IMG/VR virus record: IMGVR_UViG_3300009285_003004
Location: 1-20,306 of that record
Source: a virus
Strand: one strand, 5' to 3'
Length of the DNA stretch: 20,306 nucleotides
Shown here: one piece after another, positions 711-17,580 of the stretch
How the letters are laid out: every line of letters starts with the position of its first letter
Numbering within the stretch: the stretch's first letter is position 1
Notes under the pieces: generated by a model
Database searches by the model: none
What the model was told of the DNA's origin: nothing
Seen by the model: the letters and a program-made list of their open reading frames with translations, nothing else
Translations under genes and position numbers: made by a program

Positions 711-1805
711 ATGCCTAATGTCTTAGCCGATCCGTCGACGATTGCCACGGCGACGGGTCATTCCAGAGTATTCCTGGTGCGGACGGCCCTCGCCCGCTTG
801 GAGGTAGATACCCTCTACCACAAGTTCGGGATGATTACGCCGATGCCAAAAGGATCGGGGAACCGAACCGCCACCTGGGTACGGTACACCAACTTTACTG
901 CCGTCGCAGCGCCGTTGACGCTCGACGTGAATCCGGCTCCCACCTGGCTGTCCAACGCGACCGTCAGTGCGACCGTCGATCAACTGGGTGGGTTTACGCC
1001 CATCGGTGAATCGTTACGGTTGCACAGCATCGCGGACCCCTTGACTGAGATCGGCAATCTCGTCGGGTACTGGGCGGCGCAGACTGTGGATTTGAGGATT
1101 CGCAATGCGTTGTTTGGCACCACCCTGGACGATGAGAACCCCAGCAATGATGGGGCGCATCTGTCCACGTTCATCTACGGCATCCAGGGAGGGTTTTCGA
1201 CTCTCTTTTTGTCCGGGGATGGGACGCGGGTGGCCACACGCGCCTTGTTCCACAGTTACCTGACGGTTGACCCCACCATCTTCATCGAAGATGACTGGGC
1301 CATGAACCTCCGGCGTATTGACGACGCCGCCGCACGGTTGGAATCCAGCGCCGTGCCCAAGTTCCCCGATGGGAACTACGTCATGATTACGGACCCCAAG
1401 TCTGTCCGGCAACTGTTCCGTGACCCAGAGTTCCGGGACATGGTGCAATTCAATGGCTGGCAGACCAACGTGGCAGGCAAACCCTCCACGGCGATTCACG
1501 GGGTTCGGATTTTCATCAGCCAGCAAAACTTCATCACCAACACGGCGCCGCTCAGCGTGGCAGCGACGACTTTCTGTGCGGCCTTCTCGCCGATCTTCGG
1601 CAAAGAGGCGTATGGAGTGACGGGGTTTGGAGCGAAGGCGGGTGGAGACAGCTACGGCGGGATCAAGATTATCCACAAGACCTCTGGTCCGACGGATACA
1701 TCGAACCCGTTGAGCTTGTACGAGACCTATGGGTTCATCGTGTACCTTGGAGTCCGCGTGTTGCAAGGGACTCGCGGATATTTTATCGTGAGCCTCCAAA
1801 CGTAA
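711..1805 (+). CDS. Major capsid protein, N4-gp56 type
   Basis: 364 residues. The N-terminal third fits the N4-gp56 capsid family pattern: a helix ending in LEVDTLYHKFGM, a basic PMPKGSGNR segment, a W-x-R-Y strand, a variable loop after APLTLDVNPAP, then the sequence VSATVDQLGGFTPIGESL followed by a helix with DPLTEIGNLVG and a long helix (AAQTVDLRIRNALF). The C-terminal half is rich in strands and Gly, fitting an HK97-type fold, and ends near GYFIVSLQT. Length is normal for the family. The ATG has a consensus Shine-Dalgarno 6 bases upstream. A scaffold-like gene lies directly before it. The assignment is from remembered family features, not a search. Composition is high-GC (68% in the line 901-960), which contrasts with the gene that follows. 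The product forms the icosahedral head shell. Confidence 0.87.
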   Translation: MPNVLADPSTIATATGHSRVFLVRTALARLEVDTLYHKFGMITPMPKGSGNRTATWVRYTNFTAVAAPLTLDVNPAPTWLSNATVSATVDQLGGFTPIGESLRLHSIADPLTEIGNLVGYWAAQTVDLRIRNALFGTTLDDENPSNDGAHLSTFIYGIQGGFSTLFLSGDGTRVATRALFHSYLTVDPTIFIEDDWAMNLRRIDDAAARLESSAVPKFPDGNYVMITDPKSVRQLFRDPEFRDMVQFNGWQTNVAGKPSTAIHGVRIFISQQNFITNTAPLSVAATTFCAAFSPIFGKEAYGVTGFGAKAGGDSYGGIKIIHKTSGPTDTSNPLSLYETYGFIVYLGVRVLQGTRGYFIVSLQT

Positions 1806-1810
1806 CTCTA

Positions 1811-2458
1811 ATGATTCCAGGAATTATTTCTGAACCTGGGATCGCAGAGCCGTTGAATCCTGAGCGGCGGGAGGGCGCAAGCCCTCCTGCCCTCAAACGG
1901 TGCCGAGGATGTCTTGAGGAAAAGCCCATTGCTCAATATGGAAAACAGCAGAAGTGGTGGGGGATATGGGTAAATACTCATTGCAGGGTATGTGATGCAA
2001 AGAGGGTAAGACTCTATCGGATGGCCAATCTTGAAAAGGTAAAAGCCCGTGAACGTCGTCATAATCATTCTTTAGAAGGACAGAAATCGCACAAAAAATA
2101 TGTCGAGTCTCATCGTGTTCTTCTCAACCAAAAAGCGCATCAAACCTATTGGAAGAACCCTGAAAAATCTCGCGCCATTGCTATGAAAGCCTATGAAAAG
2201 AAAGGCCCAGAATACCAGAAACTTCAGCTTAGGAAGAAAAAAGGCACGCTGAATCAAGCGTGCATGATTTGTGGTGAACATCGCATTGTCGAATGGTGTC
2301 ATATCATTCCTCGACGCAAGGGTGGAGTCTCAGAACCGTGGAACATTTTGTATCTTTGTCCTACCCATCACCGTCTGTTGGACATCGCTCGTAATCTCTT
2401 TATCCCTGCCGAATGGCAACGGATTGCCCCACAGGTAGAAATGGCGGAGCGACAATGA
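1811..2458 (+). CDS. HNH endonuclease (homing-type, probable mobile gene)
   Basis: 215 residues. N-terminal zinc-knuckle-like pairs C31-x2-C34 and C58-x2-C61 are followed by a Lys/Arg/Glu-rich helical linker (about 70-140). The C-terminal HNH domain has C151-x2-C154, H164 in WCHIIPRRKGG, N178 in EPWNILYLC, then C183 and H186-H187. This is the usual phage HNH layout: metal-binding Cys pairs around a His/Asn/His catalytic core that nicks or cuts DNA. No Shine-Dalgarno is visible before the ATG, which lies 5 bases after the capsid stop, so translation may depend on reinitiation. The next Met is residue 72, beyond both N-terminal Cys pairs, so the early start is favoured. GC drops to 38-43% in lines 2041-2220, against 68% in the capsid line counted, which suggests recent transfer. 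No intron or intein signature surrounds it; a free-standing homing endonuclease is the best reading. A packaging-related HNH role is less likely at this position. Confidence 0.87.
   Translation: MIPGIISEPGIAEPLNPERREGASPPALKRCRGCLEEKPIAQYGKQQKWWGIWVNTHCRVCDAKRVRLYRMANLEKVKARERRHNHSLEGQKSHKKYVESHRVLLNQKAHQTYWKNPEKSRAIAMKAYEKKGPEYQKLQLRKKKGTLNQACMICGEHRIVEWCHIIPRRKGGVSEPWNILYLCPTHHRLLDIARNLFIPAEWQRIAPQVEMAERQ
1866..1891 (+). other. Strong RNA hairpin with GCAA tetraloop
   Basis: GGCGGGAGGGC pairs with GCCCTCCTGCC over 11 base pairs (one G-T pair) around the loop GCAA, a GNRA-type tetraloop closed by C-G. It lies 61 bases after the capsid stop and inside the N-terminal codons of the HNH gene. 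No T-run follows (next bases TCAAACGG), so it is not a standard intrinsic terminator. It could protect the 3' end of the capsid message, damp reading into the HNH gene, or be a relic of how the HNH gene arrived. Confidence 0.6.
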
Positions 2459-3132
2459 CAGCAACGCCCCCGCTAAAGGGGATGGATGTGAACTTTTACA
2501 AAGCGACGCTAGGGTCTGAATTGCTTCGCTGGTATCAGACCTGGCAGCCTCAGACCGTGGTGGACATTGGGACGGCGAGAGGTGATGTCTTGTTCAACAT
2601 CGTGCGGTACGATCCGCCCGTGTCCTCGGTGATTGGGGTGGACATTTCCCGCACGGCGTTGAAGATGGCAAAGATGTTGGTGAACCGCAAGGTGCATGAA
2701 CTCGGACGATCCTGTCAGGTGCAGTTTGTGGAAGGCTCCGCCGTGGCCTTGCCCTTGCCGGATAATGCGGGAGACATGGGGACGACGCATGGCCTCTTTA
2801 TTCATCTTCGCCCCGATGAAGTTCGTCAAGGACTGCAAGAGTTTTTCCGTGTCGTCCCCAAAGGCTTGTTGATTGAAAGCTCCTGTCATGCGCTGGCGAA
2901 GAATGACGCCCATCCCACGACGGATCGGACGAAGCGGTATTGGGAGGTTCGTTCACGGTACTTTTCGACCACGATGATGACGAATCTCCTCCGAAAATTC
3001 ATCGAATCCTTCCCGTATTATTTCGCGCATGATTACCTGGCCTTGTTTCGTTCACTGGGCTTGCGTGTGATTGATCGGGTCATGCTGGATGAAGGGACGC
3101 AGACGTTTGCGTATGCGGTAGCAAGGAGGTAG
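2455..3132 (+). CDS. Class I SAM-dependent methyltransferase
   Basis: 225 residues from the chosen start. The SAM-binding Rossmann core is clear: motif I VVDIGTARGD (D37 to D44), an acidic residue at the end of strand 2 (IGVDIS, D63), FVEGSAVALPLPDN for the adenine-side loop, and GDMGTTHGLFIHL in the motif IV region. This resembles the methyltransferase-11 group of small-molecule or sugar methyltransferases more than DNA methyltransferases, since no DPPY or PC motif is visible. The ATG at 2455 overlaps the HNH stop (ATGA) and has GGAG at 2446-2449, 5 bases upstream; an ATG at 2413 would overlap the HNH gene by 46 bases and is less likely. It is followed after 4 bases by three glycosyltransferase genes, so its substrate may be a sugar or glycan made by them. 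The true acceptor is unknown. Confidence 0.82.
   Translation: MTATPPLKGMDVNFYKATLGSELLRWYQTWQPQTVVDIGTARGDVLFNIVRYDPPVSSVIGVDISRTALKMAKMLVNRKVHELGRSCQVQFVEGSAVALPLPDNAGDMGTTHGLFIHLRPDEVRQGLQEFFRVVPKGLLIESSCHALAKNDAHPTTDRTKRYWEVRSRYFSTTMMTNLLRKFIESFPYYFAHDYLALFRSLGLRVIDRVMLDEGTQTFAYAVARR
3123..3130 (+). promoter_or_regulatory. Shine-Dalgarno AAGGAGGT before an ATC start
   Basis: A full-length consensus site, AAGGAGGT, covers the end of the methyltransferase gene. Six bases after it comes ATC at 3137, in frame with the glycosyltransferase. The frame has a stop at 3119-3121 and no ATG, GTG or TTG between that stop and 3215, so this site points to ATC as the initiator. Confidence 0.75.
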
Positions 3133-3136
3133 AGCC

Positions 3137-4810
3137 ATCCAACGCCCAATTTTCAGTTTAGTTGCCCCCCTTTACCAGACGGAAAAGTATCTCCCCGCCT
3201 TCATCGAAAGCGTTTTGACACAGGATTACGCCCTCTGGGAGTTGTTTATTGTCGCGGATGGTCCTTCACCAGAAGGGAAAGCCATTGTGGAAGGGTATCA
3301 GGATAAGCGCATCACCTACCTAGAGAAGCCGTGGTCTGGTGCGTGTGATACCAGAAACTTCGGGAAAGCCCAAGCGAGAGGCGATTTCATCGCTTTCCCG
3401 TCAACAGACTTCAAGCTCATGCCAGGATGTATCAGAAAATGGCTGATGTGGTTTCAAGACTTCCCTGAGAGTACCTTCGTCTACGGGGGCTATCGGCTCA
3501 TGCAAGAAGGGAAGCCCGTCATGGATTTTCCCTCAGAACCTTTCGACGTGAATCAACTGAAATACTACAACTACATTGACGGGGGATTTCCTGTGAAGCG
3601 TGAAGCCTGTCCAGACTGGGACCCTGCGATCAAGAGCCTGAACGATTGGGACTTTTGGCTGCAAGTCGTCCTCAAAGGCGGAGTCGGGAAATACATGATG
3701 TGGGACGGCAAGCCGGAGATTTCCTACATGGCAGAAATCCCTCGCGCTGGTGGGTTGTCCTATGACTCTCAAGAGCATTGGATTGAGCGGATGGAACAGA
3801 TCAAACGCAAGCATGGGATTCCCATTCATGAGACGGTGGTGACTTCGTTAGGGGCGCCCATTCATGCGAAACGGATCGCTCCCTTGATCGGGGCGGACTT
3901 CCTCCCTATGCCGTCCTTCAAGCCCCACCATTATCAAAATCTCTACCTCTTGGGATACTACGCCAGCACCAATCAGGATGAAGTGCCTCGCGAAGTGGCT
4001 CACATTAAGGTCTTTGCCCATCCGACAGAACGTGGCAAGCCCGCCGAAGGGTGTAAAATCATTCACTGGATTGGCACGGATGTTTCACTCCTCGGCCAGA
4101 AGTCCATGAATAGCTTGCGGGCGATGAAGGGACTCTTCAAACATATGCACATTCTCCATCTCTGTGAGTGTTCTTGGATGCAAGAGGAATTGAAAGAACT
4201 CGGTATTGAAGCGGCCATTCTCCCCCTCCCGATCAGCACAGACTTGAAGATGTCCCCATTACCAGAACGATTCTCTGTCGGCATCTATCTTCCGACGGGT
4301 GATGCCACAACGGACGAGAAGTATTGCAAGCAACTGATGAAGGACATCATCAAAACCCTCCCCGACGTAGACTTCAAGATTTTCGGGGATCGGATGCCTG
4401 GGAAGTTTGAGCATGAAGAACATCTGGGCTGGGTCCCCATTCAAGAGGCGATTGACCGTTGCACGATCAACCTCCGGGTCACGCCGCATGATGGCCTCCC
4501 CATCACGCCGATTGAGTTTCTGATTGCCGGACGGGAAGTGATTACCTCCGTTCCCTTACCTGGGGCGATTTGTTTAGGGAATCATGAGAGCTACACCTCC
4601 TTGCGAGAGTCCATTGTGGACGCGATTCGTCAGTGTCAGGATCATCCGAGAGAACCCGTTGAGCGCACTCTTTGGCGAGATCACTGGTTGCGGGAAACGC
4701 GCCCCGACATCTTCTTGGCTCGCTTTCATGCCAACATCGCCTCCCACCAGCGCAAGAATGGCCACGTCGAATCCCTTGAAGCCCCTGTTGAGGTGGCCGT
4801 CGGTGTCTAA
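3137..4810 (+). CDS. Two-domain glycosyltransferase: GT2-like N-terminus fused to GT-B-like C-terminus
   Basis: 557 residues if read from ATC at 3137, 6 bases after a perfect Shine-Dalgarno. That start restores the first GT-A strand (PIFSLVAPLYQTEKYL); the first standard start codon (TTG 3215) would remove it. Residues 1-215 are GT2-like: helix FIESVLTQDYALWELFIVADG (D41), a metal-site position degenerate as PSTDF (D91), and NDWDFWL (D172), where family-2 enzymes usually hold an acidic base. Residues about 230-530 look like a GT-B nucleotide-sugar domain: KIIHWIGTDVS (from 307), a Rossmann half (FSVGIYLPTGDA, DVDFKIFGD), and HDGLPITPIEFLIAG with E460 placed like the donor-binding Glu of GT4 enzymes. 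It likely adds one or two sugars to an unknown acceptor in the cytoplasm. GC is low in places (43% in 3541-3600, 40% in 4141-4200), hinting at transfer. Which half is active is uncertain. Confidence 0.82.
   Translation: MQRPIFSLVAPLYQTEKYLPAFIESVLTQDYALWELFIVADGPSPEGKAIVEGYQDKRITYLEKPWSGACDTRNFGKAQARGDFIAFPSTDFKLMPGCIRKWLMWFQDFPESTFVYGGYRLMQEGKPVMDFPSEPFDVNQLKYYNYIDGGFPVKREACPDWDPAIKSLNDWDFWLQVVLKGGVGKYMMWDGKPEISYMAEIPRAGGLSYDSQEHWIERMEQIKRKHGIPIHETVVTSLGAPIHAKRIAPLIGADFLPMPSFKPHHYQNLYLLGYYASTNQDEVPREVAHIKVFAHPTERGKPAEGCKIIHWIGTDVSLLGQKSMNSLRAMKGLFKHMHILHLCECSWMQEELKELGIEAAILPLPISTDLKMSPLPERFSVGIYLPTGDATTDEKYCKQLMKDIIKTLPDVDFKIFGDRMPGKFEHEEHLGWVPIQEAIDRCTINLRVTPHDGLPITPIEFLIAGREVITSVPLPGAICLGNHESYTSLRESIVDAIRQCQDHPREPVERTLWRDHWLRETRPDIFLARFHANIASHQRKNGHVESLEAPVEVAVGV
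4790..4796 (+). promoter_or_regulatory. Shine-Dalgarno GAGGTGG before GTG 4803
   Basis: GAGGTGG lies inside the end of the first glycosyltransferase gene, 6 bases before GTG 4803. It supports a short overlap start for the second glycosyltransferase in place of a far-upstream frame opening at 4584. Confidence 0.6.
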
Positions 4811-5525
4811 TCCTCGCGTGAGCGCGATAGGCTGTGTCTTAAATCTTGAGGCGTGGGTCGGCGAGACGTTACTAAGTCTTCGCCGTCAAACCTTCAAGGA
4901 GTTTGAGGCGATCTATGTGGATGACGGTTCGACGGATACCACCAAGCGCATTTTGATGCACTATGCCCAACTCGATCCGCGCTTCAAGTATGCCTGGGTG
5001 AAACATGGAGGATGCGCGAAAGCGTTGAACCTGGCCACCAAGATTGCCGTCGGAGAGATTCTGGTCGTCTGTAGCGGGGATGACATCTACGCCGAAGATC
5101 GCCTCAAGCGGACGGTGGAGTTTTTTGACGCCCATCCTGAGATCGATGTCTTTTACGAGAACTTCATGGTGTGTGACGATCAACTGTCGCAAGGTTCCCC
5201 TCATGAAGTGGGGCCGATGATTTTAGAAGATTACCTGACCATCCTTCCCAATGGCCGGGCCAATCAAACCATCCCGCATGGGTTCTCCGCCTACCGTCGG
5301 AAGGTGGCTGACGCGGTGCCCTATGATGAGTCACGGGAAGTCGGCATTGATTATCCCTTCTTCGCGGAAGTGGCCAAGCAGGGATTTCGCTTTGGCTTCA
5401 TCAATGATCCTGGCACGAAAGAAAAGCCCAAGATGGGCGGAGGGCTGTGTCGTGTCCGTCCCAACAGTGTCACCGCGCAACGTCAGGAGGAGGTTCGTCG
5501 TGGCGACGCCGCCGTCATCGCCTAA
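4803..5525 (+). CDS. Family 2 glycosyltransferase (GT-A fold)
   Basis: 240 residues. It begins almost directly with the GT2 fold: strand 1 VSAIGCVLN, helix ETLLSLRRQTFKEFE, then IYVDDGSTDTT (D40, D41), the hallmark nucleotide-binding turn. The metal-binding acidic pair is in LVVCSGDDI (D93-D94) after NLATKIAVGE. The C-terminal part (PHGFSAYRR, DYPFFAEVAKQGFRFGFIN) fits the acceptor-side segment. GTG 4803 overlaps the previous stop by 8 bases and has GAGGTGG upstream; GTG 4818 is an alternative. Residues read upstream of 4803 in this frame do not look like glycosyltransferase sequence. It is expected to transfer a sugar from a nucleotide donor in the cytoplasm. Unlike the first enzyme of the cassette, it keeps the DD pair, so it should be active. 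Donor and acceptor cannot be told from sequence. Confidence 0.85.
   Translation: MSNPRVSAIGCVLNLEAWVGETLLSLRRQTFKEFEAIYVDDGSTDTTKRILMHYAQLDPRFKYAWVKHGGCAKALNLATKIAVGEILVVCSGDDIYAEDRLKRTVEFFDAHPEIDVFYENFMVCDDQLSQGSPHEVGPMILEDYLTILPNGRANQTIPHGFSAYRRKVADAVPYDESREVGIDYPFFAEVAKQGFRFGFINDPGTKEKPKMGGGLCRVRPNSVTAQRQEEVRRGDAAVIA
5485..5493 (+). promoter_or_regulatory. Shine-Dalgarno AGGAGGAGG before GTG 5500
   Basis: AGGAGGAGG sits within the end of the second glycosyltransferase gene, with 6 bases to GTG 5500. It fixes the start of the third glycosyltransferase and gives a 26-base gene overlap. Confidence 0.75.
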
Positions 5526-6732
5526 CGGGGCTTGGAAGTATCACGTCCCCAAGAAGTCCGTGGCGTTCTTCGGCACGGGAACCTATGGGAACGTGTATCA
5601 TCGGCTCATTCGCGTCTCAAAAGAACTGGCGAAACGCGGATGGGAGATTTACGGCTTCGGGTATGATCCTACCAAGCATGAACAGTACGTCTGGCAACAG
5701 GACATGCAAGACATCGGCTTGAAAGCCAACATGGAGTATTTGGTGCGTCAGTCTCATTTCAGCATCTTTCAGCTGTGTCAAACCGAACTGGCCACGGCGT
5801 ACATGGAGGCCTTGCAGGAAGTGGTGAAAATCCCCATCCTGACGGATATGGACGATGATCCCTTCAACGTGGATGCCTGGAACCCTGGGGTCCGTGTGAA
5901 TACGATGGGCGAACAGTACCAGATCATTGCCGCGCAACAACTCAAACTGTGCAATGGCGTGTTGGTATCCACCGATCAACTAAAAGAAGTCGCCCTCGAA
6001 TACAATCCCCAAGTCTGGGTCGTCCCGAACACGGTGGATGACGATTGGAAGAATCTCACCAACGCCAGACGGTTGGGCGGCAAAATCCGCATTGGCTGGC
6101 AAGGGGCTTCAGCCCATCGAGGCAATCTTCGGATCATCAAAAATGTGGTGACAGCCATTCTTGAGAAGTACCCGCAGGTGGAGTTTTACTTCTGGGGGCC
6201 GTGGTTCCCTGACTGGGCGAAGCATCCCCGGATTCTCACCAACGAGCAGTTTGTCTTGATTCATGACTACCCGAAAGCCTTTAGTGAGCTAGGATGGGAC
6301 ATCAACGTCTGTCCGCTGCAAGATACCCTCTTTAACCGAGCTAAGAGCAACATCCGGTGGATGGATGGGGCGGCGTTGAAAATCCCCTCCGTGGTGTCAC
6401 GGACAAGAGCCTATGAATGTGTGAGAGACGGGGAAGATGGCCTGATCGCGCAGGATGAAGGCGAATGGATTCAGGCGCTCAGCCGGTTGATTGAAGATCG
6501 TTCCTTTCGTCGCCGGATCGGGGCGCAAGCCCATCAACGAGTCTGGAAGGATTTTCCCGTCGGCAAAGCGGCTGCCGTGTATGAGCAAATCTTCCAACAC
6601 TATCTCCCCTTAAATCAAGAATTGAACAAGGCGTCGCAGGAGGCCCATGAAGACTATCTCATCCGGCAACAAGCGATCCTGGCGTCTGGCGTGATCAAGG
6701 ACGAAACGAAAATCCCCGTGGAGGTGAAATAA
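5500..6732 (+). CDS. GT-B glycosyltransferase, GT4-like
   Basis: 410 residues. The N-terminal Rossmann half starts at KKSVAFFGTGTYGNVYHRL, with a Gly-rich loop and a following helix (VSKELAKRGWEIYGFGYD). The C-terminal half begins at IRIGWQGASAHRGNL (I198), followed by VEFYFWGPW and DINVCPLQDTLFNRAKS (F278-S283). RWMDGAALKIPSVVS and YECVRDGEDGLI (E306) correspond to the donor-sugar loop of GT4 enzymes, ending in a helix that crosses back (residues about 375-395). Length is normal for GT4. GTG 5500 has a strong Shine-Dalgarno; the frame runs open upstream to 5251, but those residues are an out-of-frame reading of the previous gene. It ends one base before the adaptor gene start and closes the sugar cassette. 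It should work as a retaining transferase on a nucleotide-sugar donor; the acceptor is unknown. Confidence 0.87.
   Translation: MATPPSSPNGAWKYHVPKKSVAFFGTGTYGNVYHRLIRVSKELAKRGWEIYGFGYDPTKHEQYVWQQDMQDIGLKANMEYLVRQSHFSIFQLCQTELATAYMEALQEVVKIPILTDMDDDPFNVDAWNPGVRVNTMGEQYQIIAAQQLKLCNGVLVSTDQLKEVALEYNPQVWVVPNTVDDDWKNLTNARRLGGKIRIGWQGASAHRGNLRIIKNVVTAILEKYPQVEFYFWGPWFPDWAKHPRILTNEQFVLIHDYPKAFSELGWDINVCPLQDTLFNRAKSNIRWMDGAALKIPSVVSRTRAYECVRDGEDGLIAQDEGEWIQALSRLIEDRSFRRRIGAQAHQRVWKDFPVGKAAAVYEQIFQHYLPLNQELNKASQEAHEDYLIRQQAILASGVIKDETKIPVEVK
6720..6727 (+). promoter_or_regulatory. Shine-Dalgarno GGAGGTGA before TTG 6734
   Basis: GGAGGTGA overlaps the last codons of the third glycosyltransferase and lies 6 bases before the TTG start of the adaptor gene. 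It supports TTG as a genuine start. Confidence 0.75.
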
Positions 6733-6733
6733 T

Positions 6734-7450
6734 TTGCCCGTCAATAGCGAGGTACTTAAATATTGCCGCACGCTCTTGGGAGAGACGACACAGAATAAGT
6801 ATCTGGACACCGAACTCATTCGGGCCTGGGACTACGCTCAAAAGGACTTCTCCAAGAAAACTGAAATCCTCCAAACGGAACTGTCCATTGCCGGGGTTTC
6901 CGGCACGAAAGATTACGCCATGACTTCCCTGACCCGTCCCATCAAGATTCGCAAGATCGTGTGGGATTGGAATACCTCCAACGCCTACCGCTTGGCCAAC
7001 ATGGACTTTGACGATTACCCGCATGGGGTAGAAAACCAGACTGGCCGACCGCAATTCTATGTGGTGTGGAACGATCAAATCCGCATTTATCCTACGCCCG
7101 ATGAAAGCAAGAGCTTCCGCGTGTATTACGTCTTCTCGGCCAGCAGCATCAATGATACCGTCGCCTTTTCTGCTAACAGCGAGATCAGCCAAATCCCTGA
7201 ACGCTGGCACCAGGCTGTTGCGCATTACGCCGTGGCGCAGATGTTGGAGAAGTACGCCACGGAGCAAGGGATTGACGCCAAGATCGCTCGGATGCTCTCG
7301 GTGTACGAGAAAGCCGTAGGAGACGCCCGCCTATTGGAGAATCGCCCAGCCGATGAAACCACGCCCCTGGGGTTCAAGGGCTTGATGTCCCCCGCGTTTG
7401 ATGGAGAACAGGGCGGGTATGGAGGGTACACCGGCAGGCCACTTTTATGA
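6734..7450 (+). CDS. Head-to-tail adaptor protein, SU10-adaptor-like
   Basis: 238 residues from TTG, with GGAGGTGA 6 bases upstream. The pattern fits phage adaptor proteins of the SU10/gp4 kind: an N-terminal helical part (LKYCRTLLGE, LIRAWDYAQKDF), then KDYAMTSLTRPIKIRKIVWD, a strand region with GRPQFYVVWNDQIRIYPTPDESKSFRVYYVF, and a closing helical pair PERWHQAVAHYAVAQMLEKY followed by a helix ending in ENRP. The order 'YP-x-P, then V-x-Y-x-F, then a helix with HYA' is what I recall for this family. Such proteins form a ring below the portal and connect it to the nozzle. The gene is followed, after a 61-residue protein, by a nozzle-like gene, as expected. The Gly/Tyr-rich tail (GGYGGYTGRP) is probably disordered. 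No search was possible, so the family call stays moderate. Confidence 0.68.
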   Translation: MPVNSEVLKYCRTLLGETTQNKYLDTELIRAWDYAQKDFSKKTEILQTELSIAGVSGTKDYAMTSLTRPIKIRKIVWDWNTSNAYRLANMDFDDYPHGVENQTGRPQFYVVWNDQIRIYPTPDESKSFRVYYVFSASSINDTVAFSANSEISQIPERWHQAVAHYAVAQMLEKYATEQGIDAKIARMLSVYEKAVGDARLLENRPADETTPLGFKGLMSPAFDGEQGGYGGYTGRPLL

Positions 7451-7633: not shown

Positions 7634-10417
7634 ATGGCTTATCCCGTTACCACCCTTCCTCCGATTAAGGGCGTTTGCCGGGATTTTGAACCCGGAACTT
7701 TGCTCCCCGGCCAATCCCCTGACATGCAAGACATCCGCCTCACCATCCGGCGAGAGATTGAGAAGATGGACGGGTTTGCGAAGTGGAATGGCACGGCCAA
7801 TCCTGACGCCAGCCAGCTTCGGGGGGGGTTTGACATGCAAAAGTGGGACACGATCACCCGCCGGCTTGTGCTCGCCAGCCACAACAAGGTGTGGACGCAC
7901 GGCCAAAAGAGTAACATTCTCTCGGCCAATCAATCCGATGTCGAAACAAACACGGCAGGCTTCCTTGCTATTGGAGGGGGAACGATTACGAGAGATACGA
8001 ACAATTATTATCAAGGGACGGCTTCATTCAAGGTTGTCACTGGTGCTGTGAATGGTGATGGGGGCAAGGTGGATACCGTTTCAGCGTCAGCCGCCACTCA
8101 ATACACGGCCTCCGTGCATCTCAAGGGGACGAGCGGGGACGTAGTTAAAATCGTCCTGCGCGACAACACCAACGCGACTGAAACGTCTACCACCATCACC
8201 ATGAACGGCCAATGGCAACGAAAAGAAGTCAGTCATACTACCGGCGCCCTGGCTGTCACGGATTTGGAGTTTCACTTGATAAACAATGCCGCCGCGACGA
8301 TCACGTTCTATGCCGATGCTTTTCAGATTGAAGCCAACAGCTTTGCCGGGCATTGGACGCGAGGCGGGGATTCTGGGTGGACAGCTATTACCCCATCAGG
8401 GATCACCAATCAAAACACCTTCTTGGAAGATGGGTTCTGGGACTTTGCACTGGCGGATGATCTGCTCGTCATGTGCAATGGCCTGGACAAACCCTACTTC
8501 TGGGATGGGTTAGGGACGGTGGCGCTCACATTGGGTGGGGATGTTTGGGAAACGTTTCAGCATCGTCCCTCGGTGATTGCCAGCGCGACAGAACAAGTGA
8601 TCAACGAAGAATTATTCTCTATTTCAGGAGCGAATGGAGCCCTCTCACATTACCGCTATAGATTTTTTGGCAATGTTTGGGATAGTCGTCTGAATCCCGT
8701 GACCGATACCTATGCACGGGCGGGATTTGTTTTGGAAGGTCTTCTTCATGTGGCTGGGGGCAATGCTCAGCTGGTTCATGATGTCTATGATCCCATCAAG
8801 AATACCTGGGATGCGGCAGGGTCATTGCCAGCGGTTCGTTCTTTTGCTGGAGGAGAAGCGTTAGGGATTTACGGGTATGTGTATGGTGGGATTGTGGCTG
8901 GGGCGGCGGTAGCAACGGGAGTGAAGTTTACCACTCTGACTAATGCCTGGTCAGCTATCGCTAACTTGAATGTCGCCGTCAATTCTGTCGGCCATGCACA
9001 AGGCAATGATTTAGTGTTCAAGATGGGCGGCATTGATACTGCCCCTGCGTATCGTACTGACATCGAAGCCTACAATGCTGATGACAATGCTTGGACAGCC
9101 AGAATCGGATTGAATACGGCAAGAGATTTAGCAGCTTCGTTCACCTTGAGTGGTGGAGGAGGTTATGCAGGAGGAGAAGTTGCTGGTCCGACGAACTCAG
9201 CGATCAATGAAATCCATGATTTTTTGGGGAATGTGACTCAAGTGGTGAAGGCGATTACATCCGCAACGAATGACTTGCAAGGAATGGGAGCGGTGCTCAA
9301 TGGCATCGGTCATTTTTCAGGAGGGACGGCTGCAGGAGTGTCCATTTCTTTCCGATATGTTCCTTTTAATTCTCATGTCATCAGCCAATTCGCCGTGTTC
9401 TTTCAAGGTGTCCTCTTTACCGCTGGGGACACGGCCAATCCTTCTCGCTTAAACTACACCGATCTGCACAAGATTAGGACCCAACGGGCCAACGCCTTCA
9501 TTGATCTCCCCCTAGATAGAATCACGTCCTTGTTCGCCTATCAAAACAGCCTCTATGCCCTCTCGCGTGATGGCGGCGTCCGCGTCAACGGGACCACGTT
9601 TGATCCTGACCCGGAGCTAGGCAATCAGTACATCGAGCAAGTCCCTCAAATGCCCGGCTGTGTCTCTCATCGTTCCGTCGTCAGTGTCTCTTCGTGGGGC
9701 TTGATGTTTTGGTGGTCCGAGGAAGGGCCGGTGCTGTGGGATGGCAACCGCCCCGTGAACCTAGCGAGACGCTATGTGAATGGCGAGCCTCGCGGGTTGC
9801 AGAAGTTCTTCGCGGCCACGGCCAACTTTGATCAGTCCTTTCACAAGCACATCGTGGGACATCACAAACCTGACACGGCTGAGGTGTGGTGGTGGCTGTC
9901 CACGGCGTCCTCCATTCGGGATGTGGCCTACATCTACAACTACGAGATTGACGAATGGTGCGGCCCGATCAACATTCGCGGGGACTTCGCGATGACTGCC
10001 GAAGATATGAACACCGATCTGCCACTCATCTTCATCGGCGGGACGCTCGGCTTTGCCTACCAGTTGGGGACGGGGACGGATTACAATGGCTCCAACATTA
10101 ACGGGCGGTATCGCACGGATTTTATGACCTTCGGAGACATGCGGACGCTCAAGGACTACGATCACCTCTACACGATGGCCAAGCAATCAGGGGCGTGGAA
10201 TCTCACCATCAAAACCTTCCGTGACTGGTCCACCACAGCGGATGCCACCAAAACTGAAGTGTTAAGCGGCACCAACAAGGTGTTGGAGACCCCGATTGCC
10301 GGAGAGTCCGTCAATGCCTTGCAGTTGGAATGGAGCAATGCAACGAAGGCGGAACCGTTCACGGTGATCGGCGCCCAGATCGGCTTGAACCCCGCGCCGG
10401 AGGCTACGGTATCATGA
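7634..10417 (+). CDS. Tail nozzle-like protein with carbohydrate-binding-like and Kelch-like insertions
   Basis: 927 residues. The frame segments (about 1-92, 243-305 and 578-927) look like phage nozzle/tail-tube-B type proteins: KMDGFAKWNG and RRLVLASHNKVWTHG early, DDLLVMCNGLDKPYFWDG, then AVFFQGVLFTAGDTANPSRLNYTD, GCVSHRSVVSVSSWGLMFWWSEEGPVLWDG, and a C-terminal part with IYNYEIDEWCGP. Two further domains interrupt this frame. Residues about 93-242 resemble a carbohydrate-binding jelly roll (YYQGTASFKVV, YTASVHLKGTSGDVVKIVL, WQRKEVSHT, FYADAFQIE). Residues about 306-577 carry Kelch-like blades (GLLHVAGG, VYDPIKNTWDAAGSLPAVR, YNADDNAWTARIGLNTAR). The insert lines counted are AT-richer (40-48%) than the 3' part (63% in 9781-9840). 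The product should close the tail channel and, through the inserts, may bind cell-surface sugars. The only Shine-Dalgarno-like sequence (AAGGTGAT) is 14 bases away, so translation is probably coupled to the small gene before it. Confidence 0.68.
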   Translation: MAYPVTTLPPIKGVCRDFEPGTLLPGQSPDMQDIRLTIRREIEKMDGFAKWNGTANPDASQLRGGFDMQKWDTITRRLVLASHNKVWTHGQKSNILSANQSDVETNTAGFLAIGGGTITRDTNNYYQGTASFKVVTGAVNGDGGKVDTVSASAATQYTASVHLKGTSGDVVKIVLRDNTNATETSTTITMNGQWQRKEVSHTTGALAVTDLEFHLINNAAATITFYADAFQIEANSFAGHWTRGGDSGWTAITPSGITNQNTFLEDGFWDFALADDLLVMCNGLDKPYFWDGLGTVALTLGGDVWETFQHRPSVIASATEQVINEELFSISGANGALSHYRYRFFGNVWDSRLNPVTDTYARAGFVLEGLLHVAGGNAQLVHDVYDPIKNTWDAAGSLPAVRSFAGGEALGIYGYVYGGIVAGAAVATGVKFTTLTNAWSAIANLNVAVNSVGHAQGNDLVFKMGGIDTAPAYRTDIEAYNADDNAWTARIGLNTARDLAASFTLSGGGGYAGGEVAGPTNSAINEIHDFLGNVTQVVKAITSATNDLQGMGAVLNGIGHFSGGTAAGVSISFRYVPFNSHVISQFAVFFQGVLFTAGDTANPSRLNYTDLHKIRTQRANAFIDLPLDRITSLFAYQNSLYALSRDGGVRVNGTTFDPDPELGNQYIEQVPQMPGCVSHRSVVSVSSWGLMFWWSEEGPVLWDGNRPVNLARRYVNGEPRGLQKFFAATANFDQSFHKHIVGHHKPDTAEVWWWLSTASSIRDVAYIYNYEIDEWCGPINIRGDFAMTAEDMNTDLPLIFIGGTLGFAYQLGTGTDYNGSNINGRYRTDFMTFGDMRTLKDYDHLYTMAKQSGAWNLTIKTFRDWSTTADATKTEVLSGTNKVLETPIAGESVNALQLEWSNATKAEPFTVIGAQIGLNPAPEATVS

Positions 10418-13449: not shown

Positions 13450-16130
13450 CGCGTCCCGATCTCGAACTCGTCCTCCCTGAACCGCCTCCGCATGAAGGGT
13501 TAGAGATTGTCCTGCCCTCTGCCCCTCCACGAGCCGGATTGGAGCTTGATCTGGGGGAAGGCAGTGATCTTCCCGCGCCTCAACCGCCCGACTTAGATCG
13601 TGCGGCGCGTGGTATTGCCGCCCGAAGTTTGGGACTCTTGGGTTGGGCGCTGGCCCTCCCTGAGAAAGCGGTGCAATCCACCCTCACGGGAGGCTTTAAG
13701 GTGCTCGGAGGCCATACGTTAGGCCAAGCCTGGGATGCCGCGAAACAAAGCTGGCAAGAAGAACGCACCGTCTTTTCTGAATTGAAGCGTGCTGCTGAAC
13801 GAGACATGGCGAGGTTGGGGATTCATCCGACGTTGGCGAAAGTTGCCTCCACCGCCGGAGCGTTGGCGGGAAGTATTGTCACCACAGCCCCCGCGATGGG
13901 ATGGGCCACCAGGGGGATTGGTGCCACGGCGAGAGCGATTCCTGTGCCTCAACCCGTTCGAAAGCTCGTGGGGCAAGCCTTGATCCCTCGCTATGGACAA
14001 CCCACGGCCTATCAGCGCATGGCGGAAGAATCCCTCCTCGATATTGCCCACACCACGAATGATGTGAAAACCCTGGTGGAAGAAGTGACTCAAGGCATGA
14101 CGGTGGCCGATCGTACCGCCCTCACTGCTGCGATCAAAGCGGGCGGGGTGAGTGCCGATCCGAAGCTGGCGGGGGCGGCCAGTACCCTGCGGGGCCTCTT
14201 GGATCAAATTGGCCAACAAGCCGTGGAAGCCGGATTGATCCCCGCCGATGTGTACCGCGCCTGGCAGGGGGAATACATTGCGCGCTTGTATGCGTTGCAT
14301 GAAGTGAAAGGCAAGAATCTCGCTCCGCTCATGCAATGGCTGGGGTATCAGCCGAACAAGGCGACGTTGACACGGTTCATGAAGCGTCAAGAACTGCCCT
14401 CCTGGATTTATAGCGATCTCCAATCGGCCCTCAATGGGAATTGGGAGGAAGCCTCTTCCATGATCCAGGGGTTAGCTAAGAACGAGGAGGTCCCGAACTG
14501 GATGCGGCGGGCCTTCAATGACATGCAACGGGCGGCGGATTCCACCACGATTCATCCACGGATCAAGGCGTTTGTGCGAGAGCATCATTTGCCAGATGAC
14601 ATCCGACAGCAAATGGGGGAGATTCTTGATGCGTCGTACCTGACATCGAAAGGCGCCAGTGAAACGCTGAAAGATATTCGCCGTGTGGAGTTGTTCAATC
14701 AAGTCTCGAAACAAAAAGACTGGGTGAGTGACGTGCCCGCACCTGGCTTTTCGTTGATGGCGGACACGCCGAAGTTGGGGATTCTCTCTGGCCAGTACGT
14801 CAAGGCTGAAATCGCTGATGATATTAACCGCATGGAGCATGTGGCCGGTCCGTTGGTCCAGGGCTATCGAAAGATGCTGGGGCAATGGAAAGCCTTCAAG
14901 ACGATCTGGAACCCGGCCACTCAATCCCGCAACGTCCTCAGCAACATCATCCTCGCGGATGTGGGAGGGTTGTCGCCTGCGCGCATTGACATCTATCAAA
15001 ACGCCTTGTCAGAGTTGCGAAGCCAGGGGAGATTCTTTCAGTTGTTTAACAAGGAAGGGTTGTATGGGAAAGGCTTTGCCGCTTCGGAATTGAGAGGGTA
15101 CTTGGATGATCTGCTCAAGGAACGCGATGCCGGAGGGTTGTGGTCTAGCCTGGTGAATGGCGCTGGGCAATTTCAAGATCGTCTAGGGAAAGTGTACCAA
15201 TTCAATGAGGAGTTCTTTAAGACGGCGAAAGCCTTGCATAATCTTGAGCGAGGCATGGACGTGAAAGCGGCGGTAGATGATGCTCAGACGTGGTTGTTCG
15301 ATTACTCCAAGACCACGCCGTTCATCAATCTGGTGAAAGATACGGCCATCCCGTTTGTGACGTTTACCTATAAAGCCTTGCCTGCGATTGCGAAGGCGGC
15401 GGCGGAGCATCCCGTCAGGCTGTGGAAATATCCTATTGCCTTAGCGGACATGACAGAAGCGGCGGCGGAAGAATTGGACCTCTCGGAAAAGGAATGGGAG
15501 CGAGCCAGAGCCTTGTTGCCTGGCTATGTGAGACGCGGGGAGTTTCTCTTGCTCCCCTTCAAGGATCAGTCAGGACGGTTGCAGTTTGTGGATTTTACCT
15601 ACATCTTCCCCTGGGGAGATATTGGCGAAATCGGCCAACAAGGGCTGGGGCGTCTCATGCAAAATCCCTTGGTGACACTTGAGGAAGATTTGCGGCGGGG
15701 CCGTGCCGCCTTCAACGACCAGGAGTTATGGAACCACGATGATAACACCGTCACGGCAAAAGACAAGTTTCTGGCAGGCTTTCGCCATGCGTTTCGCACC
15801 CTCATGCCCGCGCTCATGCCTCCGTATGGTACCTCGGTGGATGTCATGGCGAAGGCGATTGAAGGCGTGCCGGATTGGGCCGGACGGCAATCCTCGTTGC
15901 CGCAAGCGGTGCTCAGAACCCTCGCAGGAATCAAAGTGACGCCGGTAGATTTATCACAACAGCAACGCCAAGCTCAGGCTGATCTCCGTGGAGACTTGCA
16001 GCAGTTACACGACCAGCAACGCAAGGTGTCACAAGATCGAAGTCTCTCAGCGGTGGAACGCTTGGATGCCCTCGACGAATTGAACAAGAAAATGGCGGCC
16101 CGTCGAAAGATGGGGCTTCTGCATGAGTAA
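13431..16130 (+). CDS. Large ejection-type (internal virion) protein
   Basis: 899 residues from TTG 13431. The N-terminus carries a Pro-rich repeated motif (LELVLPEPPPHE, GLEIVLPSAPPRA, GLELDLGEG; residues 11-44). Next come hydrophobic Ala/Gly-rich segments: RSLGLLGWALALPEKAV, and residues 138-166 (STAGALAGSIVTTAPAMGWA). A long helical body follows with WKAFKTIWNPATQSRNVLSN (486-505) and FDYSKTTPFINLVKDTAIPF (from 623), patterns I associate with large ejection proteins and the large polyvalent-protein-associated domains of phages. The last 60 residues are a Gln/Lys-rich coiled coil (QQRQAQADLRGDLQQLHDQQ). Such proteins leave the capsid with the DNA and form a channel across the envelope; the hydrophobic segments fit that. 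No lytic transglycosylase or peptidase motif was spotted. The stop overlaps the fibre start. The role is inferred from pattern and place, and the exact family is uncertain. Confidence 0.65.
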   Translation: MATATVARPDLELVLPEPPPHEGLEIVLPSAPPRAGLELDLGEGSDLPAPQPPDLDRAARGIAARSLGLLGWALALPEKAVQSTLTGGFKVLGGHTLGQAWDAAKQSWQEERTVFSELKRAAERDMARLGIHPTLAKVASTAGALAGSIVTTAPAMGWATRGIGATARAIPVPQPVRKLVGQALIPRYGQPTAYQRMAEESLLDIAHTTNDVKTLVEEVTQGMTVADRTALTAAIKAGGVSADPKLAGAASTLRGLLDQIGQQAVEAGLIPADVYRAWQGEYIARLYALHEVKGKNLAPLMQWLGYQPNKATLTRFMKRQELPSWIYSDLQSALNGNWEEASSMIQGLAKNEEVPNWMRRAFNDMQRAADSTTIHPRIKAFVREHHLPDDIRQQMGEILDASYLTSKGASETLKDIRRVELFNQVSKQKDWVSDVPAPGFSLMADTPKLGILSGQYVKAEIADDINRMEHVAGPLVQGYRKMLGQWKAFKTIWNPATQSRNVLSNIILADVGGLSPARIDIYQNALSELRSQGRFFQLFNKEGLYGKGFAASELRGYLDDLLKERDAGGLWSSLVNGAGQFQDRLGKVYQFNEEFFKTAKALHNLERGMDVKAAVDDAQTWLFDYSKTTPFINLVKDTAIPFVTFTYKALPAIAKAAAEHPVRLWKYPIALADMTEAAAEELDLSEKEWERARALLPGYVRRGEFLLLPFKDQSGRLQFVDFTYIFPWGDIGEIGQQGLGRLMQNPLVTLEEDLRRGRAAFNDQELWNHDDNTVTAKDKFLAGFRHAFRTLMPALMPPYGTSVDVMAKAIEGVPDWAGRQSSLPQAVLRTLAGIKVTPVDLSQQQRQAQADLRGDLQQLHDQQRKVSQDRSLSAVERLDALDELNKKMAARRKMGLLHE

Positions 16131-17580
16131 ACCCGTCCCCCTGGCGGCCACCGAACGCGATCTCTCGCGGGTGGTCAATCAACTTGTGACGTACTGGAAT
16201 CAAGGGATTGATGCCAACGTCCTGAGAGACCAGTCGGTGAAAGCCTCGAAACTCTCCTTCCCCCTGCTCTTGCCTGATGGGAAGGTAGGAGCACCGAGTC
16301 TCGCCTTTGCTGCCACCGGCGATCAGGACAGCGGCCTCTATCGCATTGGTACGAATATCGTGGGGATCGCCCTTAATGGAGTGGAACAACTGCGTTTTGC
16401 TACGACGGAGGTCGTGTTCAATGAGGGGTCTGGAGATATTGATTTCCGCGTTGAAACAAATGCGAGTACCCATGGATTATTTGTTGATGCAGGAACAAGT
16501 CGGGTAGGAATCAATAAGAGCGCGCCGGCTGATACGCTCGAAGTTCATGCACTTACTGGCCAGGCGGGTTTTATGCTGGTCAGCGATCAGGCGGGACAAA
16601 ATCCCTACATTGCTTTGCAAAGTTATTCCAATCAGATTTATGTTGATCGGTCCACCGGGAGTACGATTCTCACCGCAGGCACCGGACAAATAACTCTGAC
16701 CTCAGCCGGACGAGTAGGATTTGGAAGTGCGGCGGCGGCTTTCGTTCTTCACGTTCGATCGACAACACTCCAAACAGGGATTGGCATTGAAGATAATACT
16801 GGACAAAATCCCTATTTGGTTTTCCAAACTACGGCAACACAAATCTATCTTGATCGGAGCAACAATGATCTCATTTTTAATCGTGGGAGCACCGAACGAT
16901 TCCGGCTCACTTCGACGGGGGCGAAAGTCACAGGGACTCTTAATGTAACGGGAGCCGTGACGCTCGATGGGGCGGTCACGCTCGGGACGGACAGCGCCGA
17001 CAGTATCCAAGTGAAAGGGATTCTTCAATCCAGCTTACTCTTTACCGAGGCAGGCAACTACGACATCGGGGCGTCCGGGGCGACTCGCCCCCGTCATTTG
17101 TATCTGGCGGGACTTGCGAACATCGCCGGATCATTAGATGTGGCGGGGATCACGACCCTGGCGGCGGGGACGGCGGCCGCGCCTGCTCTCGTCCTCCCCG
17201 CAGACCCCGATACGGGGTTGTACCAGGTGGCCGCGAATTGCCTCGGACTGGCGGCCACGGGCGTACCGGGCTGTCGGGTGCTAACGACACCCTCATGGGC
17301 GGCGGATGGTGCAGAACATGATCTCACGGGCGGTTCGGGTGTGGGCATGGGGGCTTCCGGCATGTACATTATCACGCTCAATGTCAGAGGGTATTCGGCG
17401 ATGTTTATGGTGCGGGCGTGGAGCGATAATATAGAAATCTCTGATCCTGGTGGCTATTTTACGGCGGCCTATAGTGCAGCGGACAATAATGCCACCAATC
17501 TGTACATTGCAGCCAGTACCTTGCGACTGCAAAATTGGGACTTGGCCTCTACGTACACGATCTTTTACGTGGGGCCATAA
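16123..17580 (+). CDS. Tail fibre protein built from repeats
   Basis: 485 residues. The ATG overlaps the previous stop by 8 bases. The first 50 residues (ERDLSRVVNQLVTYWNQGID) look like a helical attachment part. Then comes a fibre motif, APSLAFAATGDQDSGLYRIG with IVGIALNGVEQLRF (from residue 57), repeated in degenerate form near 353 (APALVLPADPDTGLYQ, CLGLAATG). Between them are two copies of an about 70-residue unit, starting at 127 (RVGINKSAPADTLEVHA) and 197 (RVGFGSAAAAFVLHV), each holding GQNPY and QIY[VL]DRS. The C-terminal about 90 residues (GASGMYIITLNVRGYSAMF to TYTIFYVGP) look like a beta-rich tip domain, the likely receptor-binding part. No intramolecular chaperone or endosialidase motif is seen. 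The middle is AT-richer than the ends. It probably forms a trimeric fibre on the tail. Confidence 0.82.
   Translation: MSKPVPLAATERDLSRVVNQLVTYWNQGIDANVLRDQSVKASKLSFPLLLPDGKVGAPSLAFAATGDQDSGLYRIGTNIVGIALNGVEQLRFATTEVVFNEGSGDIDFRVETNASTHGLFVDAGTSRVGINKSAPADTLEVHALTGQAGFMLVSDQAGQNPYIALQSYSNQIYVDRSTGSTILTAGTGQITLTSAGRVGFGSAAAAFVLHVRSTTLQTGIGIEDNTGQNPYLVFQTTATQIYLDRSNNDLIFNRGSTERFRLTSTGAKVTGTLNVTGAVTLDGAVTLGTDSADSIQVKGILQSSLLFTEAGNYDIGASGATRPRHLYLAGLANIAGSLDVAGITTLAAGTAAAPALVLPADPDTGLYQVAANCLGLAATGVPGCRVLTTPSWAADGAEHDLTGGSGVGMGASGMYIITLNVRGYSAMFMVRAWSDNIEISDPGGYFTAAYSAADNNATNLYIAASTLRLQNWDLASTYTIFYVGP
16501..16920 (+). repeat. Two tandem about 70-residue fibre modules (210-base period)
   Basis: The module starting RVGINK at 16501 and the module starting RVGFGS at 16711 align along their length: LEVHA with VLHVR, GQNPYIALQ with GQNPYLVFQ, QIYVDRS with QIYLDRS, and a closing LTS[AT]. 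At DNA level the 14-base string GGACAAAATCCCTA is identical at 16594-16607 and 16801-16814. Other codons have diverged, so the duplication is old or the modules were recruited separately. Confidence 0.75.

Follow-up and report, generated by a model that had tools for sequence, protein, structure and literature searches.

How does a Kelch propeller come to sit within the nozzle protein of a short-tailed phage, and what could it do there? The question is raised by an open reading frame (ORF) of 927 amino acids at 7634..10417 on the plus strand of the virus record IMGVR_UViG_3300009285_003004, a single uncultivated contig that was analysed over its whole length of 20,306 bases (the window; all parts of the ORF given below, as well as the capsid and adaptor genes, are likewise on the plus strand). 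A preliminary description of this DNA had pointed to Kelch signs at 8549-9364, which correspond to residues 306-577 of the ORF, and the motifs that it quoted are indeed present in the translation. Our analysis showed that the ORF encodes a podovirus nozzle protein of the P22 gp10, SU10 gp17 and T7 gp12 kind, and that residues 304-580 (8543..9373) are predicted to be a complete six-bladed Kelch propeller which, judging by the sequence on either side of it, was inserted into the nozzle in frame. Taken singly, the nozzle family, the Kelch fold and the site of insertion are already known; the search turned up no other case of the three together.

When searched alone against Pfam, the Kelch block matched Kelch_1 (PF01344) at 3e-7 and 30.2 bits, over the curated cut-off of 20.1, and also gave a match below the cut-off to Kelch_3, a model of the galactose oxidase central domain. 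In a sequence search of the PDB, designed SAKe propellers scored best (down to 6e-27), and solved human Kelch domains such as those of KLHL2 and KLHL20 matched at about 1e-18, so that the Kelch identity proposed earlier is upheld by matches far above chance. Alignment with regular Kelch proteins placed six repeats in register, the first of them degenerate. The block was also modelled alone from an alignment of seven Kelch sequences, with a predicted local distance difference test score (pLDDT) of 76.7 and a predicted template modelling score (pTM) of 0.81. The model folds as a Kelch propeller of six blades with a closing N-terminal strand, within the 4 to 8 four-stranded blades in a closed ring that mark such propellers, and it compares with solved Kelch propellers at a Z score of 34 and a root-mean-square deviation (rmsd) of 1.4-2.1. 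The in-register alignment and the strands of the model thus replace the previous count of about five blades with six: the degenerate blade 1 (residues 316-351, 8579..8686), blade 2 (362-394, 8717..8815), blade 3 (406-442, 8849..8959), blade 4 (453-490, 8990..9103), blade 5 (497-538, 9122..9247; lower pLDDT in its second half) and blade 6 (552-576, 9287..9361). The location first given was exact, but because residues 304-307 (8543..8554; strand 8-11 of the model) provide the closing strand, which the strand count assigns to blade 6, the domain runs from about 304 to 580 and is slightly longer than had been described. A complete domain whose N and C ends lie next to each other in the last blade is well suited to insertion in a loop.

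The rest of the ORF belongs to a nozzle protein, also annotated in phages as a stabilization or tail tubular protein B-like protein. The 927-aa protein matches phrog_3287, a virion structural family into which a 512-aa homolog from Microcystis phage MaAM05 also falls, and this homolog in turn matches nozzle or “stabilization” genes of HMO-2011, Roseobacter, Rhizobium and other phages. Most of the phages whose nozzle genes match the MaAM05 homolog share a capsid-adaptor-nozzle gene order, and the same order is seen here, with a major capsid gene at 711..1805 (TIGR04387, N4-gp56 family, E value 2e-22) and a head-to-tail adaptor gene at 6734..7450 (PF24175, SU10_adaptor, E value 4e-15) directly upstream of the nozzle gene. 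A profile of 18 other nozzles, from which the protein of the window was left out, found this protein as three separate pieces, at residues 6-116, 243-300 and 584-879, with an E value of 8e-35 (search space 1000). In a fold comparison of a full-length model, solved nozzles (Pa223, P22, SU10, Sf6, crAss001 and others) ranked top with Z scores of 13-16 and rmsd of 7-9; the alignment rows behind this model covered the C-terminal nozzle only, and the N-terminal half was left unresolved (mean pLDDT 48.6), as was the Kelch block. A scan of viral contigs for close relatives of the full nozzle protein or of the capsid protein found none. Two database records met during this work deserve mention: PDB 9nwi chain Y, named “Capsid and scaffold protein”, is matched by the nozzle profile at positions 14-428 and was the top fold match, which identifies it as a nozzle, and the MaAM05 record (L008, MW495066.1) carries lepA, proS, ftsH and other housekeeping genes around its phage genes and looks like part of a bacterial chromosome that contains a prophage.

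The nozzle core is divided into an N-terminal part of residues 1-95 (7634..7918), a part of residues 243-303 (8360..8542) that holds a CNGxDxPxxWDG motif, and a C-terminal part of residues 581-927 (9374..10414); each is covered by one piece of the profile match, the first also by the core alignment and the last also by the model. Between the first two lies another insert, missed in the preliminary description, of residues 96-242 (7919..8359). This is predicted to be an all-beta sandwich, with modelled strands at 155-233 and pLDDT mostly 60-87 in the block, and it is absent from homologs. Once residues 96-242 and 304-580 are taken out, the remaining 503 aa align end to end with the 512-aa MaAM05 homolog, and deleting both inserts raises the profile score from 116 to 142 bits in a single continuous match; the Kelch block by itself gives no match with the nozzle profile. 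The earlier view of a nozzle protein interrupted by an inserted block is therefore borne out by the profile pieces on both sides and by the insert-free core. At the insert borders only short, imperfect pairs of direct repeats were seen, and a clean duplication was not found. The insert at residues 96-242 closes with a DAFQIExxxFAGHW motif and by eye resembles a segment of the nozzle ORF of contig L292 (DAIQIEQKAYATAW).

The Kelch block also stands apart in composition, as had been noted from its GC content. It has 49.2% GC, where the remaining parts of the ORF have 57.5, 52.6, 55.2 and 56.5% and the window as a whole has 55.0%, and the signal is stronger at synonymous sites: GC at third codon positions (GC3) is 0.415 against 0.644 expected from the amino acids of the block and the codon habits of the phage itself (z -8.3), the largest departure among the parts tested. 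In the nozzle part that follows, GC3 is 0.714, while in the insert at residues 96-242 it is slightly low (z -1.8). An unsupervised search of the ORF for the segment of lowest GC3 arrived at residues 325-581 (z -7.9; the extreme of 60 permutations was -5.0). This departure indicates that the block was acquired horizontally and recently, from a source of different composition. The suggestion of a possible non-phage origin holds in that this genome carries the block as foreign DNA, but foreign composition leaves the type of source open to phage, as Kelch propellers occur in other phages too, including in virion proteins. No match at E<=1 was found in a tblastn search of the block against annotated phages, and a scan of the genome collection gave only a Bacteroidetes locus (L298) that matches residues 311-520, so that no donor was identified.

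The position of the block can be compared with that of extra domains in known nozzles. It falls between profile positions 148 and 161 and begins after residue 156 of the insert-free core, with two blades preceding it by strand count, and the insert site is probably the opening between blades 2 and 3 of the nozzle propeller. The surface loop proposed in the preliminary description is thus retained as a loop insertion and narrowed, most probably, to the opening between blades 2 and 3, where tip domains are attached in other nozzles. In the nozzle of SU10, gp17, four Ig-like domains between propeller blades 2 and 3 form the tail tip (PMC9509320). This protein (7z4b, 7z4f) has large blade 2/3 inserts and a preceding adaptor gene like the nozzle studied here, with a fold match at Z 15.3, but its inserts are Ig-like (Big_2) rather than Kelch and it lacks clear sequence similarity to the nozzle of the window. 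The muzzle protein gp44 of crAss001 has an Ig-like domain between blades 2 and 3 that begins at residue 163 (PMC10172136), and its structure (7qok) holds Ig-like and crass-fold domains in place of Kelch. T7 gp12 is a nozzle with a seven-bladed propeller, and its tip domain extends from a loop of blade 3 (PMC6702177), though this tip is a beta-barrel and not a Kelch domain. The closest solved nozzle by sequence profile is the tail tubular protein B of Anabaena phage A-4L (9k09, a portal-tail complex; E value 3e-19), which has about 300 extra residues between profile positions 136 and 161, where the Kelch block also falls, and a further insert near positions 354-381; it has no Kelch match, and the insert has no Pfam match. 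A nozzle in contig L278 (442-2589) likewise has about 124 inserted residues where the Kelch block sits, just past the CNGxDxPxxWDG motif. By eye the L278 insert is FN3/Ig-like, and it has no Pfam match.

To see how common such a fusion might be, we compared at least 143 nozzle ORFs, of which 128 were near full length (median 546 aa), in a set weighted to HMO-2011-type phages. Only the nozzle of the window matched a Kelch profile (1/143); the other 142 had no Kelch match, and alignment with related nozzles, the check suggested at the outset, showed the block in no other collected nozzle. The nozzles of HMO-2011-type phages and MaAM05 (500-620 aa) have a homologous core and a capsid-adaptor-nozzle order as here, but they lack the Kelch block. 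Given this sampling, the combination of Kelch and nozzle appears to be rare, which is not proof of uniqueness. Extra domains of other kinds do occur in the set, namely Ig_Rha78A_N in L284 and laminin-G/lectin-like domains in L222 and L292.

Kelch propellers are nevertheless present elsewhere in phages, though in none of the examples that we examined are they fused into a nozzle. Phage CBB has a Kelch protein that is a structural part of its particle (PMC5259590), and Kelch proteins of phiKZ-like jumbo phages are annotated as virion structural. In L195, a Kelch gene (4749-5687) lies in a siphophage tail cluster, after the tape measure, Dit, minor tail and BppU-like genes and before the endolysin gene, a position in which receptor-binding proteins are often found. 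A laminin-G-like domain is part of a nozzle-like protein in L222 (10732-13990), and a separate Kelch gene lies shortly upstream, across the contig ends. Matches to YDPxTNxW in nozzle-bearing contigs (L194, L189 and relatives) were rejected as single motifs of an unrelated protein, not Kelch.

What could the propeller do in this position? The nozzle would plug the end of the short phage tail, with the Kelch propeller inserted into the propeller of the nozzle itself, most probably between blades 2 and 3, where other nozzles carry tip domains. It would hang from a loop with its two ends meeting in the last blade, and the nozzle core would be left intact. By analogy with solved nozzles, for both the hexamer and the placement at the tip, six Kelch propellers would be presented at the far end of the tail. 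Kelch propellers typically bind through their loop faces, and host recognition is for this reason the likeliest role: these faces would probably bind a protein or glycan of the host surface, and the contact may help to trigger the opening of the nozzle. Host contact is further supported by analogy with the Kelch gene in the tail cluster of L195, the Kelch protein of the CBB particle and the tail tip of crAss001, which has been proposed to contact the cell (PMC10172136). Overall, we consider it somewhat probable that the acquired propeller is shown at the tail tip and contacts the host surface. We suggest more tentatively that the blade 2/3 opening may be a general docking site at which whole ligand-binding modules (Ig, Kelch) are swapped, and that the captured Kelch domain would make this nozzle a receptor-binding protein.

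Several points weigh against this interpretation. The blade 2/3 assignment follows from sequence position and strand count, as the N-terminal half was left unresolved in the full-length model, and the profile comparison with SU10, which places the resumption of the nozzle at SU10 residue 592, is weak. An alignment of Kelch proteins, such as the one behind the Kelch model, itself favours a Kelch fold. The argument for host binding is one of analogy, and since a putative fibre gene lies elsewhere in the window (16123-17580), receptor binding need not fall to the nozzle, or not to it alone. This gene is also consistent with a structural or docking role, in which the propeller at the tail tip would anchor fibres or a needle, or join neighbouring nozzle subunits, while other proteins bind the host. 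The inserted nozzle domains of SU10 do stabilise the tail, and they are in contact with short fibres and adjacent subunits (PMC9509320). Against such a role, if indirectly, a foreign composition and absence from the other collected nozzles fit the recent gain of an accessory better than a long-integrated part of the assembly, and we regard it as possible but rather unlikely.

An enzymatic role appears improbable. Some Kelch propellers are enzymes, such as galactose oxidase and N-acetylneuraminate epimerase (NanM), and the Kelch_3 match would be in line with a similar activity on surface sugars; however, it is below the cut-off, the only match over a cut-off is to the general Kelch motif, and the block most closely matches Kelch domains of the binding type and designed propellers. 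We also considered whether a metagenome misassembly had joined a fragment of a Kelch gene into the nozzle gene, as the shift in composition coincides with the block and the record is a single uncultivated contig. This is very improbable, since both joins are in frame, the nozzle breaks off and resumes at a site with inserts in other nozzles, and the insert is one complete closed propeller instead of a random fragment. Nozzle proteins do have a seven-bladed propeller of their own, but the idea that there was no insertion and that this propeller drifted to resemble Kelch is scarcely credible, because nozzle sequence is present outside the block, the nozzle profile does not match the block alone, and composition differs across the Kelch block only.

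The window has some further features of note. An HNH endonuclease gene (1811-2458) directly after the capsid gene has strongly low GC3 (z -5.8) and is probably another recent arrival. In the putative tail fibre gene, residues 103-277 have low GC3 (z -6.9), as if a segment of the fibre had been exchanged. Between the capsid and adaptor genes (2413-6732) are methyltransferase-like and glycosyltransferase genes, and this is an unusual place for such cargo.

A Kelch propeller at the nozzle insert site adds a new module to a known site and does not amount to a new kind of system. Host-contact change in short-tailed phages is usually told through fibres and spikes, but here a compact and complete binding fold lies inside the nozzle that gates the DNA; its composition bears signs of recent capture, and its position is one where other phages also place additional domains. 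Should the propeller bind the host, recognition and the opening of the gate would be coupled in one polypeptide, and the insert sites of nozzles could be searched across genomes for receptor binders that have been overlooked.
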